Assembly (NCBI GenBank): GCA_018002295.1
Contig: JAGNGI010000006.1
Coordinates: 1 to 56,149, forward strand
Direction of reading: 5' to 3'
Length of the DNA: 56,149 nucleotides
Source: Fidelibacterota bacterium
GTDB taxonomy: Bacteria > Fidelibacterota > UBA2242
The position numbers were made by a program, and so were the translations under genes. Positions 20,473-47,995 of the stretch are shown here, piece by piece (within the stretch, counting starts at the first letter, position 1; every line of letters starts with the position of its first letter). The notes beneath the pieces were generated by a model. That model had not been told where the DNA came from. It saw nothing but the letters and a program-made list of their open reading frames with translations, and did not search any database.

Positions 20473-21589
20473 ATGTTGAGTGATATCCAAGTTGAATTAG
20501 ATAATATTGCGCCCCGCATTGATGAATTGCGGAGGTTTCTTTGACGTCGAGTCGAAGAAAAATGAATTGAATACCGAGCGTCAGAAAACGACCGCCTCGG
20601 ATTTTTGGTCTGATCCAGCCCAAGCGCAAACAACTCTTCAAAAAATTCGGGGGCTGGAAAGCGAAATCGATAATTTTGAAAATCTGGTGAAATATCAAAA
20701 AGAAATCACAGACTTCGTGGATTTAGCCGCTGAGGAACAAGATGACTCTGTCTTGGCTGAATTGGAAAAGATGGTAAACGAACTTATTAGTAAAGTCGAA
20801 CAATTAGAATTGGAAACAATGCTCGATGAACCGGACGATGAGAAGAATGCTATTTTGACAATCCATCCGGGCGCCGGCGGAACCGAGTCACAGGATTGGG
20901 CGCATATGCTGATGCGTATGTATTTGCGCTGGATGGAACGCAGTGGGATGGAGGCGGACGTCATTAGTATTCTCGATGGTGAAGAAGCCGGGATTAAGGA
21001 AGTTAGTATCGAAGTCAAAGGCAGATACGCCTACGGTTATCTCAAAGCCGAAGCCGGGATTCATCGCCTGGTGCGCATTTCACCATTCGACGCCAACCAT
21101 CGTCGCCATACTTCCTTCGCTTCGGTTTTTGTCTATCCGGCAATCGAAGACGATATATCGGTCGAAATTAATCAGGATGACCTGCGGATTGACACCTTCC
21201 GCGCCAGCGGTGCCGGCGGCCAACATGTCAATAAAACCAGTTCTGCGGTTCGGATTACTCATATTCCGACCGGTATCGTTGTCCAGTGTCAAAATGAGCG
21301 CTCTCAGTTTAAAAATAAAGATAGCGCAATGAAAATTCTAAGAGCGCGCCTCTATCAATTAAAAAAGGAAGAAAAAAATAAAGAAAAGATGGAGATCGAG
21401 AAGAATAAAAAGGATATTTCCTGGGGTAATCAGATTCGTTCCTACGTCTTTCAGCCATACACTTTAGTCAAGGATCATCGCACGAAGTACGAAACCGGCA
21501 ATATTCAAGCCGTGATGGACGGCGAGATAGATGAATTCCTGCGTCAGTATTTATTATTCAATGTCAAAAATGAAAGAGCTAAAAAGTGA
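20473..21589 (+). CDS. prfB: Peptide chain release factor 2, programmed +1 frameshift
   Basis: RF2 terminates at UGA and UAA. The zero frame starts at ATG 20473, reads 23 codons and meets TGA at 20542-20544; translation continues in the +1 frame from GAC 20543, so the product joins 20473-20541 and 20543-21589 (about 371 residues). The shifted frame carries 'RISPFDANHRRHTS' (with the RF2 SPF tripeptide) and 'GAGGQHVNKTSSAVRITH' (GGQ catalytic loop). A caller that ignores recoding will start too late, at 20507, and give a wrong N-terminus. lysS follows with a 4-bp overlap, the same prfB-lysS order as in Escherichia coli. Confidence 0.95.
20530..20545 (+). promoter_or_regulatory. RF2 autoregulatory +1 frameshift site
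   Basis: The internal Shine-Dalgarno-like GGAGG (20531-20535) is 3 nt upstream of the slippery CTT (20539-20541), followed by TGA (20542-20544) and C. This is the canonical RF2 recoding layout: CTT-TGA-C with a close upstream SD. Low RF2 slows termination at UGA and favours slippage, raising RF2 synthesis. It also shows that UGA is a normal stop codon in this organism. Confidence 0.95.
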
Positions 21590-31216: not shown

Positions 31217-31394
31217 CAACTTTCATAATAAGAGACTAAGAGTCTCCTTTTATTTTAAAAGTTAGAATAGAATGATATCTCAAACACTACCATTTGTATC
31301 TACGATTAATCATCCTGAATTTGAATTTGAATTTAATTATTGATTTTACACATAAAGTAAAGTAAAATACATATTATTTGAAATTTAAGAGAAT

Positions 31395-31497
31395 GAGGAT
31401 CAAGCGATCAACTATCTATTAGGTTGATAGAGCTGGGCAATATTGCAGCAGGTATAGGCCTGTGGGACCGCTAACACGATCTCGCAGGCCTTTTTTT
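31395..31497 (+). ncRNA. NiCo (Co2+/Ni2+)-type riboswitch with intrinsic terminator
   Basis: A four-way-junction fold can be drawn: P1 31403-31406/31469-31472, extendable by 31395-31401/31478-31483; P2 31412-31416/31426-31430; P3 31437-31439/31444-31446; P4 31449-31452/31459-31462. Between stems lie AGCTGGGCA, GCAGCAGG and CCTGTGGGAC, which match from memory the conserved segments of the NiCo (czcD) aptamer. The P4 3' strand and P1 strand are shared with a terminator hairpin (31457-31464/31483-31490, seven Ts). Metal binding would therefore hold P1/P4 and block termination, an ON switch. The downstream gene is a P-type cation ATPase, a usual target. The first junction segment fits the consensus less well. 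Confidence 0.7.
31457..31497 (+). terminator. Riboswitch-controlled terminator
   Basis: GGCCTGTG (31457-31464) pairs with CGCAGGCC (31483-31490) over 8 bp with one G-U pair, followed by seven Ts (31491-31497). It sits 46 bp before the ATPase start, inside the leader, and its 5' arm overlaps the aptamer P4 3' strand, as expected for an expression platform. Confidence 0.85.
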
Positions 31498-31542: not shown

Positions 31543-34023
31543 ATGGAATCATCTAAAAAACAATCGGTAATCAACGAAAAACCCACTCCTATCAAAGGAC
31601 TAACGACAGAGGAAGCGCTTTCTCGGCTAAAAAAATATGGTCCTAATACGTTCCCAAGAAGTAAACCACCCTCAGCTTGGTCAATCCTAATTTCTCAATT
31701 TAAAAGCCCCCTTATTTATATAATCCTGGTAGCCGCTGTGATTTCACTCATTATGGGCGAACTGACTGATTTCATTATAATTATAGCCGTCGTTATTGTT
31801 GATGTCATTCTCGGATTTTTCCAGGAATTTCAGGCTCAGCGTACTTATACGGCATTGAATAAATTGCTAAAACCGACCACTACTGTTATCCGCGATGGAG
31901 AACGCCAGGAGATTGATGTAACGAAAGTAGTACCGGGTGATATCGTTATACTAAATGCAGGAGAGCGTATTCCCGGTGACGGTGAAATTATTGAGGGCGC
32001 CAGGCTCAGTGTAGACGAGGCAATCCTGACCGGCGAGAGTGAGCCGATTAAAAAGTCAGTCGAAGCCGGCTCTAACCAGGTTTTCATGGGTACAACACTC
32101 CTTACTGGTAGAGGAGTAATGCGAGTCACCCAAACCGGTGTTCGAACCGAGTTAGGCAAAATTGCCAAAAGCCTTCAGGAACATAAAGAAGAAGAGACTC
32201 CGTTACAGGTACGACTTAAATCTTTCAGCAGGACGTTGACAATTATTGTCGTTTCGTTCACTACTATTATATTTCTCGTCGGACTTTTACTGAAGCGTGA
32301 TTTTCTGGATATGCTACGGACTTCGGTTATTTTGGCTATTTCGGCAATACCGGAGGGCTTGTTGATTGCCGTTACTGTTATTTTGGTACTGGGGATGCGT
32401 AAGATCCTTAAGCGCCAAGGCTTAGTTAAGAAACTGTTAGCCGTTGAAACTTTAGGTTCTGTCAATGTCATCTGTACCGATAAGACGGGTACTCTTACCG
32501 AAGGCCGAATGCGTGTGACTCGTACCGATTTTGTGGATAACGAGCGAGCCATCCAGATTATGGTTCTGTGTAATAACCTTGAGGGACCGGTTGAAATGGC
32601 TTTGTGGGAATATGCCAAATCTCGACTGCCGAATGATCCCCAGACTTTAGTTGAAGAGAGCCAACGTCTGGACGAAGAAATGTTCACCAGTGAAACCAAA
32701 TTTATGATTACCGGTCACCACTTACCTGATGGCGATTATCATTTCCTGAAGGGTGCGCCCGAAATTGTCCTGAAGATGTGTCAAATCAACGATGATGAAC
32801 GTCAGCGAATTTTGGCTCAAATTGATCAATGGGCTGGTGAAGGATTGCGTCTTCTCGGTCTGGCTTACCGTGACTATGGAATCCTGGAAGATCACACCGG
32901 TTATAGCTGGGTAGGCTTGATCGGTATGGAAGACCCGATTCGCGAGGGAGTGCACGAGGCGGTTCTGCTCGCTAAACATGCAGGTATTCAGGTTAAAATG
33001 ATAACCGGCGATTATCGCCGCACTGCCGAACGTATTGCCAGTAATATCGGTCTATTGCAAAACGGTGAGGAAACACTGGAAGGCGAAGAACTTGCTCAAT
33101 TAAATGACGAGGAACTTGCTAAACGTATATACCCTACCGCCGTTTTTGCCCGGATTAGGCCTCATGATAAATTACGGATAGTTAACGCTTTGCAGAAACA
33201 CGGCGATATTACGGCTATGATCGGGGATGGCGTCAATGACGCGCCAGCACTTAAACAGGCTAATATCGGCGTGGTGGTCGGCACAGCCAGCGATGTGGCT
33301 AAGGAGACTGCCGATTTGATTCTTCTCGATAACAATTTTCGCACCATCGTTGCCGCAATTGAGGAAGGGCGCGTAATCTTTGAGAACATCCGCAAAGTCG
33401 TAGCCTATGTCCTCTCCAATTCTTTCGCCGAGGTATTGACTATTTTTATATCTATGATTTTGGGCTGGCCGGCACCATTACTGGTTGCGCAGATACTCTG
33501 GATTCACTTGATCTGTGATGGTCCGGCTGATATCGTGCTCGGTTTTGAGCCGAAGGAGAATGGCATTATGGACGAAAAGCCAAAATCTCTTAAAGAACCA
33601 ATTTTGCCTCCTTTAGGCTTGTTTTTAATTGGTGTGATTAGTATCGGCAGTGCGCTAGCGGCTCTCCTGATTTTTGGCCACTATTTTAAAATACACGGTG
33701 ATGCTGACGAAGGCCGTAGTTTAGTCTTCGCTAGCCTGGCGATAAATTCACTAATTTATATTTTCGCTTACCGAAGTATGCGCAAGTCACTTTTTAAAAT
33801 GAACTCGATCCTGAAAAACAAACCGTTAATCTTTGCCGTAATTTTTGGAATGGTGCTGGTTTTTCTGCCTTTTGTAATACCCAGTTTAAGCCAAGCTTTG
33901 GGCGTCGTACCCCTGGACCTGAAACAATGGTTATTAATCTTCACGATAGCATTAATGCTTCTTATTGCGGTGGAAATTGGCAAGGCAGTCAGCAACTGGT
34001 GGCACAATAAAAAAATACTCTGA
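31543..34023 (+). CDS. P-type metal cation-transporting ATPase (probable Co/Ni efflux)
   Basis: An 826-residue P-type ATPase: cation ATPase N-domain (1-75), TM1-2 (about 55-105), actuator with 'LTGESEPI', TM4 'AISAIPEGLLIAV', phosphorylation site 'CTDKTGTLTEG' (Asp313), nucleotide domain with 'KGAPE', and hinge 'MITGD...MIGDGVNDAPALKQANIGV'. Four C-terminal helices follow. TM6 reads 'HLICDGPADIVLGF', close to P2A Ca2+ pumps but not identical. The riboswitch in the leader points to cobalt/nickel rather than calcium export. The N-terminus lacks CxxC metal-binding domains. AGGAG at 31531-31535 precedes the ATG. It stands as a single-gene unit. Confidence 0.88.
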   Translation: MESSKKQSVINEKPTPIKGLTTEEALSRLKKYGPNTFPRSKPPSAWSILISQFKSPLIYIILVAAVISLIMGELTDFIIIIAVVIVDVILGFFQEFQAQRTYTALNKLLKPTTTVIRDGERQEIDVTKVVPGDIVILNAGERIPGDGEIIEGARLSVDEAILTGESEPIKKSVEAGSNQVFMGTTLLTGRGVMRVTQTGVRTELGKIAKSLQEHKEEETPLQVRLKSFSRTLTIIVVSFTTIIFLVGLLLKRDFLDMLRTSVILAISAIPEGLLIAVTVILVLGMRKILKRQGLVKKLLAVETLGSVNVICTDKTGTLTEGRMRVTRTDFVDNERAIQIMVLCNNLEGPVEMALWEYAKSRLPNDPQTLVEESQRLDEEMFTSETKFMITGHHLPDGDYHFLKGAPEIVLKMCQINDDERQRILAQIDQWAGEGLRLLGLAYRDYGILEDHTGYSWVGLIGMEDPIREGVHEAVLLAKHAGIQVKMITGDYRRTAERIASNIGLLQNGEETLEGEELAQLNDEELAKRIYPTAVFARIRPHDKLRIVNALQKHGDITAMIGDGVNDAPALKQANIGVVVGTASDVAKETADLILLDNNFRTIVAAIEEGRVIFENIRKVVAYVLSNSFAEVLTIFISMILGWPAPLLVAQILWIHLICDGPADIVLGFEPKENGIMDEKPKSLKEPILPPLGLFLIGVISIGSALAALLIFGHYFKIHGDADEGRSLVFASLAINSLIYIFAYRSMRKSLFKMNSILKNKPLIFAVIFGMVLVFLPFVIPSLSQALGVVPLDLKQWLLIFTIALMLLIAVEIGKAVSNWWHNKKIL

Positions 34024-35768: not shown

Positions 35769-36122
35769 ATGAAGGTGAAAAAAGAAAATAAGAGTATTAA
35801 AAAAGAAGATCCGAAAATCATCGATATGTCAACTTTTGATGAGTTGATTCATAGCAACAAACCGGTGGTGGTCGAATTTTACGATGAAAAAATTAGCACG
35901 AGTTATATAGTTGATTCGATATTGTCCCGGCTCGCCAACTATTTTCAGAACCAGATTGAATTTTTGAGGCTTCATATAAATCAACATCGAGCAATTGCCG
36001 ATAAATATCATATTTTTTCATCACCAGCCACTTTAATCTTTTTAAACGGTAAACTAATCGAGGTTATCCTCGGGACTTTTTCGCAGAACCAGATAATCGA
36101 GATTCTCAACCGTCTTCTTTAG
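35769..36122 (+). CDS. Thioredoxin-fold protein lacking the redox cysteines
   Basis: A protein of 117 residues (98 if it starts at ATG 35826, 'MSTFDELIHSNKPVVVEFYD', the usual thioredoxin opening). The thioredoxin strand-helix order is clear: 'KPVVVEFYDEKISTSYIVDS', 'IEFLRLHINQHRAIADKYHI', cis-Pro segment 'FSSPATLIFLNGKLIEVILG'. The WCxxC active site is replaced by 'DEKISTSY', with no cysteine anywhere. It cannot do dithiol exchange and may be a structural or chaperone-like partner. It precedes a radical SAM gene by 21 bp and is probably co-expressed with it. Confidence 0.72.
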   Translation: MKVKKENKSIKKEDPKIIDMSTFDELIHSNKPVVVEFYDEKISTSYIVDSILSRLANYFQNQIEFLRLHINQHRAIADKYHIFSSPATLIFLNGKLIEVILGTFSQNQIIEILNRLL

Positions 36123-36143: not shown

Positions 36144-37556
36144 ATGACGACTTTTAAGAAATATGTCAATAAAATTGCACTCGACAAATTAGTAACCTAC
36201 TGTATCAAAGACCCGCAGAAGCATATTCCTAAACTCATTGATTTTGTTGATAAAAGTGCCTGGCTTCCAATTCATAAAAGCTATGTACAAGGAGCAAAAA
36301 GCATTGTCAATAATCCCGATTCCAACTGGTATCAACTAGCTATGCGAGCAATTAGGGATATAGACCCGGATATTATCCATAAAATAGTGAGAAATCTGTT
36401 TATTAATTCTGGCTTCGAGGGACAGGGTAAGTTAGTTGAAGAGAGGGAGAGGCTCGGTTTTGGTATTCCCTGGGCGGTGCTAATGGACCCAACCAGTGCT
36501 TGTAACTTGAAGTGTAAAGGTTGCTGGGCTAGTGAGTATGACAAGAGTCTCAATCTTGATACTGATCTAATGGATCGAATAATTCGGGAAGGTAAAGAAC
36601 TTGGTATTTACTTCTATATCTACAGTGGTGGTGAACCGCTGATACGTAAAAACGATTTGATTAATCTAGCTGAAAAGCACTCGGATTGCGTCTTTCTATC
36701 TTTTACGAATGGCACATTAGTGGACGAACACTTTGCGGATGAATTGCGAAGAGTAGGAAATTTTTCGCTGGCATTAAGCATTGAAGGTGATGAAAAAGCA
36801 ACCGATTTCCGAAGAGGCAAAGGCAGTTACCAGAAGCTGATTTCTGCAATGAAAATTTTGAAATCGAGAGGAATTCCTTTTGGCTTTTCGACCTGCTATC
36901 ATAGCCAGAACTGGAATATCGTGGGGGAACCGGAATATCTTGATCAGATGATTGAAGCTGGATGTTATTTTGGCTGGTACTTTACTTATATTCCACTTGG
37001 GAAACACGCTGATCTTAGTTTGCTTGCCCGTCCGGAACATCGGGAACATATGTACTACCGGGTGCGTGAGGCGCGCCAGACCAAACCAATTTTCCTGATA
37101 GATTTCTGGAATGACGGGGAATATGTCAACGGTTGTATTGCCGGTGGGCGTCGTTATTTGCATATTAACGCCAATGGTGATGTCGAACCTTGTGCCTTTA
37201 TTCATTATTCGGATACCAACATTAAGAACATATCTTTATTAGAGGCTTTACAATCTCCATTGTTTCTCCAATATCAGAGGAATCAACCGTTTAATCAAAA
37301 TCACCTGAGACCATGTCCATTGCTGGATAATCCTGACGCTTTAAAATCAATTGTACTGGAGACTGGGGCATATTCGACTCAACATATGGATCGTGAGGAT
37401 GTGGTAGAATTAACTGCTAAATGTCAGGATATAGCGCAAGCCTGGAAACTTACAGCCGATAGATTATGGGAAGAGACTCTAAAAAATCGAGTCCAAAAGG
37501 GGTCCGGAGTGAAACAATATGAGCGGGAACTCGTTGATGCAGAAATCCATAATTGA
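36144..37556 (+). CDS. Radical SAM protein with SPASM-like C-terminus
   Basis: A 470-residue enzyme. About 110 helical residues precede the radical SAM core, whose cluster motif is 'CNLKCKGC' (CX3CX2C, near residues 119-126). 'YIYSGGEPLI' is the SAM-binding GGE motif. The core is followed by cysteines in 'NGCIAGG', 'DVEPCAFIHYSD' and 'RPCPLLDN', compatible with an auxiliary iron-sulfur cluster of the SPASM/twitch kind. An AGGAGG site lies at 36130-36135. Substrate is unknown: no precursor peptide is obvious nearby. It pairs with the cysteine-less thioredoxin-fold gene upstream. Confidence 0.83.
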   Translation: MTTFKKYVNKIALDKLVTYCIKDPQKHIPKLIDFVDKSAWLPIHKSYVQGAKSIVNNPDSNWYQLAMRAIRDIDPDIIHKIVRNLFINSGFEGQGKLVEERERLGFGIPWAVLMDPTSACNLKCKGCWASEYDKSLNLDTDLMDRIIREGKELGIYFYIYSGGEPLIRKNDLINLAEKHSDCVFLSFTNGTLVDEHFADELRRVGNFSLALSIEGDEKATDFRRGKGSYQKLISAMKILKSRGIPFGFSTCYHSQNWNIVGEPEYLDQMIEAGCYFGWYFTYIPLGKHADLSLLARPEHREHMYYRVREARQTKPIFLIDFWNDGEYVNGCIAGGRRYLHINANGDVEPCAFIHYSDTNIKNISLLEALQSPLFLQYQRNQPFNQNHLRPCPLLDNPDALKSIVLETGAYSTQHMDREDVVELTAKCQDIAQAWKLTADRLWEETLKNRVQKGSGVKQYERELVDAEIHN

Positions 37557-46948: not shown

Positions 46949-47995
46949 ATGAAGAAAATTGGTTTGATTATGAGCCTGTTAATCGGGTTTAGCTTATGCG
47001 GTCGTCAAGCCGGAATTCACTTTGAAAAGATGGATTTTGATACCGCCCGGCAGAAGGCTCAGAACGAACAAAAATTACTTTTGACTTATTTCTATACGGA
47101 TTGGTGAGGCGCCTGCAGGCAGTTGAACCAGTTGGTTTACACGAATAAAGAAGTCGGCGAATATATCAATGCCCATTACGTCAGTATTAAAATAAACGGC
47201 GATAGTTTGGAAGGCAAGCAACTACGCGAGAAATACAAATACCCAGGCTATCCCACGACCATTATTATGACCTCGGATGGAGAGGAAATCGATCGGATTG
47301 TCGGCTTTAACGGCCAGAAAGATGAATATTTCCAATTGCTGAAGGATTACACCGAAGGACGGGGAACTCTGGGCGATTATCTGAAGAAATTAGACGAAGA
47401 ACCAGATAATTTCGAATTGAATTATGCGGTCCTGAATAAATATTACGATCGCAACGATACTCCGATGATTCGGAAGTATGCGCAGATTGTTCTGGAACTT
47501 GACCCAGAAAACACCAAAGGTAAAAAGACGGAAATGCTTTATCACCTTGCTTTTTCCGAATATAAAACTTCCGGTGAAATTAACCCTCTGATGGACTTTA
47601 TTAATAGCTGTAATGATGAACAATGGCTGGAAATGGCTTATAACGAGGTCGTCCGCTATTATCAGAAAAAGTCAGATCAATCTCAAGTTTTAGCAACTTA
47701 TGAATCCGCAATACAGCGCCTTCCGCAATCAACTTCGGTGATGAATTCTTATGCCTGGTATATTTTCCAGAATAAAATTGCCGAACGATATTCTCGTGGC
47801 ATCCAGATTGCCCGGCAGGCAGTAGAGCTGGAGCCATCTGCCGATCACATCTGGGACACACTTGGCCAATTGTTATTTGCGGCTGGGCAGGTTGATGAAG
47901 CTATCCAGGCTATGCAAAAAGCCAGCGAACTCAATCCGCAGGAAAAGTCATATCAGGAACTATTGATAAAGTACAAAAAGGCGCTGAATAGTTGA
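46949..47995 (+). CDS. Probable selenoprotein: thioredoxin-like (Sec-x-x-Cys) domain with TPR tail
   Basis: The reading frame from ATG 46949 (GGAG at 46940-46943) to TGA 47993 is interrupted only by TGA 47105-47107, codon 53. Residues 1-17 form a signal/lipobox-like segment ('LIGFSLCG'). The thioredoxin-like domain (about 25-155) reads 'LLLTYFYTDW', then the TGA, then 'GACRQLNQLVY', with the cis-Pro segment 'GYPTTIIM'. Relatives have WCxxC here, so TGA replaces exactly the first redox Cys, giving W-U-G-A-C. TPR-like helices follow (about 160-348). A hairpin 17-32 nt after the TGA fits a bacterial SECIS. A gene caller reports only the downstream part from TTG 47123. A nonsense mutation is the main alternative, but coding quality is intact on both sides. 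Confidence 0.75.
47105..47107 (+). other. In-frame TGA, predicted selenocysteine codon
   Basis: TGA replaces the first cysteine of the thioredoxin CxxC motif (W52-TGA53-G54-A55-C56). Reassignment of TGA to Trp or Gly is unlikely: TGG encodes the preceding conserved Trp, TGA terminates many genes in this window, and prfB is present with a TGA-dependent frameshift. Cys codons are used normally elsewhere. Confidence 0.72.
47124..47139 (+). promoter_or_regulatory. Candidate bacterial SECIS hairpin
   Basis: TGAACC (47124-47129) pairs with GGTTTA (47134-47139) over 6 bp with one G-U, closing an AGTT loop. The loop begins 22 nt after the TGA and has G as its second base. Both fit the general bacterial SECIS description (short stem, small apical loop with an early G, roughly 16-37 nt after UGA). 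A GC-rich palindrome (47111-47120) lies between the TGA and the hairpin and could compete or stack below it. Confidence 0.55.

Follow-up and report, generated by a model that had tools for sequence, protein, structure and literature searches.

Results

A thioredoxin-TPR gene with an in-frame UGA

The window, by which the whole stretch of 56,149 nucleotides analysed here is meant, carries a gene predicted to encode a selenoprotein composed of a thioredoxin (Trx) domain and a tetratricopeptide repeat (TPR) solenoid. Its features are collected in Table 1. The frame opened by ATG 46949 holds two TGA codons, one internal (residue 53) and one terminal (47993–47995), and is otherwise clean, as the initial annotation had stated. 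The internal codon lies in the context FYTDW-TGA-GAC, giving W-U-G-A-C where a thioredoxin CxxC has its first cysteine. Ordinary gene calling had been said to lose the N-terminal 58 residues, which was reproduced here: these residues are missing because standard ORF finding starts at TTG 47123. UGA is a normal stop elsewhere in the window, with 13 of the 37 genes ending on TGA and a CTT-TGA-C frameshift site in prfB near position 20540, in agreement with the earlier reading. A scan for promoters and terminators gave results near chance level.

Table 1. Features of the candidate Trx-TPR selenoprotein gene in the window.
Feature	Position	Strand	Basis
Predicted selenoprotein gene, 348 residues with Sec53, own terminal TGA	46949..47995	+	Frame and full-length homologues
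Putative signal peptide, lipoprotein-type in most relatives	46949..47005	+	Alignment read by eye
Predicted thioredoxin domain, residues 23-135, DsbD-gamma/disulfide-isomerase-like, cis-Pro102	47015..47353	+	Pfam, predicted fold, structure and profile comparison
UGA codon, predicted selenocysteine at first position of UxxC	47105..47107	+	TGA or Cys codon across relatives
Putative resolving cysteine 56 (TGC), invariant column	47114..47116	+	Homologue alignment
Shortened ORF from ordinary gene calling, TTG start	47123..47995	+	ORF caller
Candidate SECIS hairpin, stem 47124-47129/47134-47139, loop AGUU 47130-47133	47124..47139	+	Position, clade covariation, codon bias
Predicted TPR solenoid, residues 141-347	47369..47989	+	Pfam, predicted fold, structure comparison

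Two further observations were made in the window. A NiCo riboswitch (45 bits) was found at 31386–31472, upstream of a putative P-type cation ATPase gene (31543–34023), and a small thioredoxin-like ORF without CxxC (35769–36122) directly precedes a putative radical-SAM gene (36144–37556).

Predicted structure, localisation and role

Pfam assigned Thioredoxin_7 and Thioredoxin_2 to the N-terminal part of the protein, followed by TPRs. The PF13098 match of the window protein scored 38.9 bits (cut-off 27), and all 18 family members scanned matched this model. An AlphaFold2 prediction based on 27 family members, with Sec modelled as Cys, showed a Trx domain and an all-helical solenoid at a pLDDT of 94.7. 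The Trx domain matched 2kuc, a putative disulfide isomerase of Bacteroides (TM 0.85 by target length), and DsbD-gamma domains (4ip1, 2fwe and 1uc7), which were the nearest solved domains by profile after 2kuc; the solenoid matched consensus TPR proteins. Among the invariant residues are the two positions of the active site and, in the cis-Pro motif, Pro102.

Judging from the N-terminal alignment, export of the product is probable, and most members would be lipoproteins. A lipobox was canonical by eye in many relatives; the window copy itself reads FSL-C, with Cys18 placed by alignment, and its lipobox is non-canonical.

As to function, we lean towards an envelope thiol-disulfide oxidoreductase with client binding by the TPR part. 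The selenocysteine of W-U-x-x-C would attack a disulfide of the substrate, in whichever redox direction the enzyme may work, and the second cysteine would resolve the selenenylsulfide. The TPR solenoid may select the partner protein, and a DsbD-like membrane protein is a plausible electron donor. No partner gene was conserved across the family in the gene neighbourhoods; the neighbours found in single lineages are small housekeeping clusters or ActF/PntAB-type genes, named from their sequences. At three loci (L182 in G054, L183 in G057 and L190 in G205) a putative FKBP-type prolyl isomerase lipoprotein gene adjoins the Trx-TPR gene.

An alternative role, resembling that of the chaperedoxin CnoX/YbbN, is possible and was judged rather unlikely: here the TPR arm would hold unfolded envelope proteins and the selenocysteine centre would protect or repair their cysteines. 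The domain order is the same as in CnoX/YbbN, YbbN structures were among the Foldseek matches, and the Caulobacter CnoX has oxidoreductase activity with a CxxC site (PMC8129009). However, the whole chains superpose poorly (TM 0.26/0.32, rmsd 23.4), the Trx domain is nearer to DsbD-gamma and 2kuc, and CnoX is cytoplasmic.

Relatives carry a UGA or a cysteine codon at the same column

A search of 61 genomes, namely the host genome and 60 relatives, yielded full-length homologues, most of which contain exactly one in-frame TGA. Against the genome contigs, a search with the protein alone found nothing, and an alignment-based one detected relatives. A phylum-wide search of 245 genomes placed the TGA form in 61 genomes and an uninterrupted Cys form in 13 (counted from the listing). 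Outside the phylum, Sec forms were found in Zixibacteria (L067, L073, L076 and L079), Calditrichota (L078), Acidobacteria (L072) and Aminicenantes (L068, where the gene is cut at the contig end), and Cys forms in Calditrichota (L054), Zixibacteria (L063 and L074), Ignavibacteriae (L057) and Bacteroidetes (L056).

At the Sec column, 115 loci, some of which share a genome, showed TGA 92 times, TGT 16 times, TGC seven times and no other codon. Among non-identical 42-nt segments the count was 62 TGA to 19 TGT/TGC. The alignment of homologues, proposed as a check on the claim that the TGA replaces the first redox cysteine, gave a column of Sec or Cys only. The same comparison answers the concern that TGC or TGT had been miscalled at 47105: with TGA present at this codon in independent genomes, a sequencing error is rejected.

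Purifying selection acts on both sides of the TGA; upstream of it, changes in close pairs fall mainly at third positions, as is expected if the protein is read through the TGA. The upstream dN/dS was 0.04–0.17 in seven close pairs and 0.34–0.45 in four; dS was saturated in three. On a tree of 79 proteins the Sec/Cys label required 10 changes, of which at least nine are forced by well-supported branches (quick method).

A SECIS-type hairpin follows the UGA

Shortly after the UGA of the window gene comes the hairpin UGAACC-AGUU-GGUUUA, with a 6-bp stem and a spacing of 22 nt between the UGA and the loop. It agrees with the constraints given for bacterial SECIS elements, which are a loop of 3–9 nt, a stem of 4–16 bp, a G in the first two loop positions and a spacing of 16–37 nt (PMC13188914). 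The folding energy of this hairpin alone was not significant (z −0.1 for 46 nt and −1.7 for 24 nt), so the assignment of a SECIS to the window gene relies on comparison and covariation. Of the hairpin announced in the initial annotation, the position and the base pairing among relatives stood up, and the folding energy in the window sequence by itself did not.

In most Sec forms the hairpin is of a main type with a stem of 4–5 bp, a UGGAN loop and 16 nt between UGA and loop. Across 40 sequences 92% of the cells of this stem were paired against 79% in shuffles, and both sides had changed in 20 cells against 3.2±1.6, shuffles of a kind that does not keep relatedness. Compensatory changes occurred at all five stem pairs, and the covariation signal was abolished when the partner strand was slid by 1–3 bases, a control in which relatedness is kept. 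In the clade of the window, with loop AGUU at 22 nt, 100% of the cells were paired and two pairs showed double changes (eight sequences).

Of the 54 Sec forms of the main type, 47 have the whole stem, as do two of the 19 Cys forms. These two Cys-form genes, L075 (3001–4041) and L150, retain the CGGCTGGATGCCG hairpin and adjoin Sec forms in the tree; they look like relics of a recent change from Sec to Cys. Synonymous codon choice within the hairpin was biased in the Sec forms (Arg CGG 34/45 against a background of 20%, Leu CTG 47/53 against 23%) and in the window clade (Leu TTG 8/8 against 18%), and weakly so in the Cys forms; the binomial tests treat the sequences as independent, by which their significance is overstated. 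The hairpin core CCAGTTGG was useless as a genome-wide SECIS marker, with 37+37 matches against 32+45 in the reversed control.

Selenocysteine machinery of the host

The host genome (G000) is a metagenome-assembled genome of 2.2 Mb in 120 contigs, 94% complete, whose named relatives place it in the phylum Candidatus Neomarinimicrobiota. A search for selA, selB, selC and selD, which had been proposed as a check, found the full set: tRNA-Sec (60.5 bits, cut-off 47; anticodon TCA by ARAGORN), selA (509 bits) adjoining selB (375 bits) on contig C109, and selD (396 bits) on contig C17. Within the phylum, selA was more common in genomes with a Sec form (55/61) than in the others (122/184; Fisher p = 2e-4, genomes treated as independent), and the six Sec-form genomes without selA are 55–87% complete. 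Outside the phylum a selA match was obtained in six of seven Sec-form genomes, one of these being partial and below cut-off; the Acidobacteria genome gave no match.

The selD of the host (L212:559–2757) occupies the C-terminal half of one 732-aa ORF whose N-terminus reads as a NifS-like cysteine desulfurase. ORFs of similar length contain selD in most genomes of the host's family; in other families of the phylum SelD stands alone and carries an in-frame TGA of its own.

No second selenoprotein was found in the host genome among the candidates searched, a non-exhaustive set of formate dehydrogenase, which had no match, AhpC-TSA and Thioredoxin_2. Among the AhpC-TSA and Thioredoxin_2 proteins, an in-frame TGA was present in the Trx-TPR gene only.

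Discussion

Decoding of the in-frame UGA

We consider it very probable (about 94%) that the gene at 46949–47995 encodes a selenoprotein and that UGA 47105–47107 is decoded as selenocysteine. SelB and tRNA-Sec would decode this codon, aided by the hairpin directly behind it, and the final UGA would terminate translation. It is very improbable that a suppressor or a reassigned genetic code places Trp, Cys or Gly there instead. This read-through hypothesis draws on the fact that the case for selenocysteine in the protein is made entirely from sequence, but it is at odds with the use of UGA as a stop in the window genes and in the prfB frameshift site, with the complete Sec machinery of the host, with Cys as the sole replacement of UGA in relatives and with the covarying SECIS-type hairpin. 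A further reading is a gene broken by a nonsense mutation, or a Cys codon (TGC/TGT) miscalled as TGA, with at most the part from TTG 47123 expressed. It would suit the shorter ORF returned by exactly that start and the single base by which TGA differs from a Cys codon, but has next to no likelihood: 61 genomes of the phylum and members of four further phyla share the TGA, neither TAA nor TAG occurs at this codon, and there is purifying selection upstream and a covarying hairpin downstream. For the family as a whole it is already refuted.

Selenocysteine may have been gained more than once in the family, given two SECIS registers and a Cys relative, L054, near the clade of the window. The strongest form of this idea, which we regard as unlikely, is that selenocysteine replaced one and the same catalytic cysteine on more than one occasion, with a separate SECIS for each (UGGAN at 16 nt in most members; AGUU at 22 nt in the order of the window, whose Calditrichota relative L054 has Cys), and that the proteins are 'seleno-chaperedoxins' of the envelope, in which a TPR arm for client binding is combined with a selenocysteine redox centre.

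Novelty and significance

The Trx-TPR selenoproteins appear to be a genuine and widely conserved family of a well-known kind that had apparently gone undescribed. A 2026 review catalogues 119 prokaryotic selenoprotein families and subfamilies, among which a tetratricopeptide protein is absent (PMC13188914). A 2016 survey lists three SAR406 single cells with only an 'orphan' SelD (PMC5029168), and a full-text search of open-licence papers returned no description of Marinimicrobia selenoproteins apart from these cells. Selenoproteins with selenocysteine in the first CxxC position of a thioredoxin are common, so what is new is the Trx-TPR family, not its chemistry.

Roughly one in four of the Neomarinimicrobiota (SAR406) genomes sampled has a member of the family, and ordinary annotation is likely to truncate these genes, by which the redox site is lost. 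With at least nine switches between Sec and Cys and two SECIS registers, the family offers a good natural experiment on when and why bacteria replace cysteine with selenocysteine, and suggests a use of selenium in the redox chemistry of the envelope.

Comparison with known systems

The catalogue lists broad UxxC thioredoxin classes, namely Trx (PF00085) and a thiol:disulfide interchange protein (PF13098; PMC13188914), and the GOS survey counted reads of Trx-like 1–3 and GOS_C (PMC2398784). The selenocysteine-containing thiol:disulfide interchange protein or Trx-like 2 (cd02953, PMC2398784; PF13098, PMC13188914) shares the DsbD-gamma-like Trx fold and the selenocysteine in first position of UxxC. 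Its entry (representative WP_011366075.1) names no TPR, the Trx domain being its sole definition, and it is by this description that it is set apart. Some of the short marine reads in the cd02953/Trx-like and GOS_C entries may come from the present family.

None of the NCBIfam models, all of which were compared with the window protein, matched at cut-off, and 18 family members gave partial matches only. The best match for the Trx domain was TsoB, a rhodanese/DsbD fusion-like selenoprotein (NF045694), which differs in architecture and motif and for which the window protein scored 47.5 bits against a cut-off of 805. The Trx7/PDZ selenoprotein (NF041199; 17.2 bits against a cut-off of 300) likewise fuses a Thioredoxin_7 domain to a second domain and contains selenocysteine, but in second position (CxxU) and with PDZ instead of TPR.

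The C-terminal (gamma) domain of DsbD, second only to 2kuc by profile, belongs to a three-domain membrane protein that lacks TPR and has Cys instead of Sec. CnoX/YbbN (PDB 3qou) has an N-terminal thioredoxin followed by a C-terminal TPR part, as does the Trx-TPR selenoprotein, but is cytoplasmic, carries SxxC or CxxC and no selenocysteine, and superposes poorly over the whole chain.
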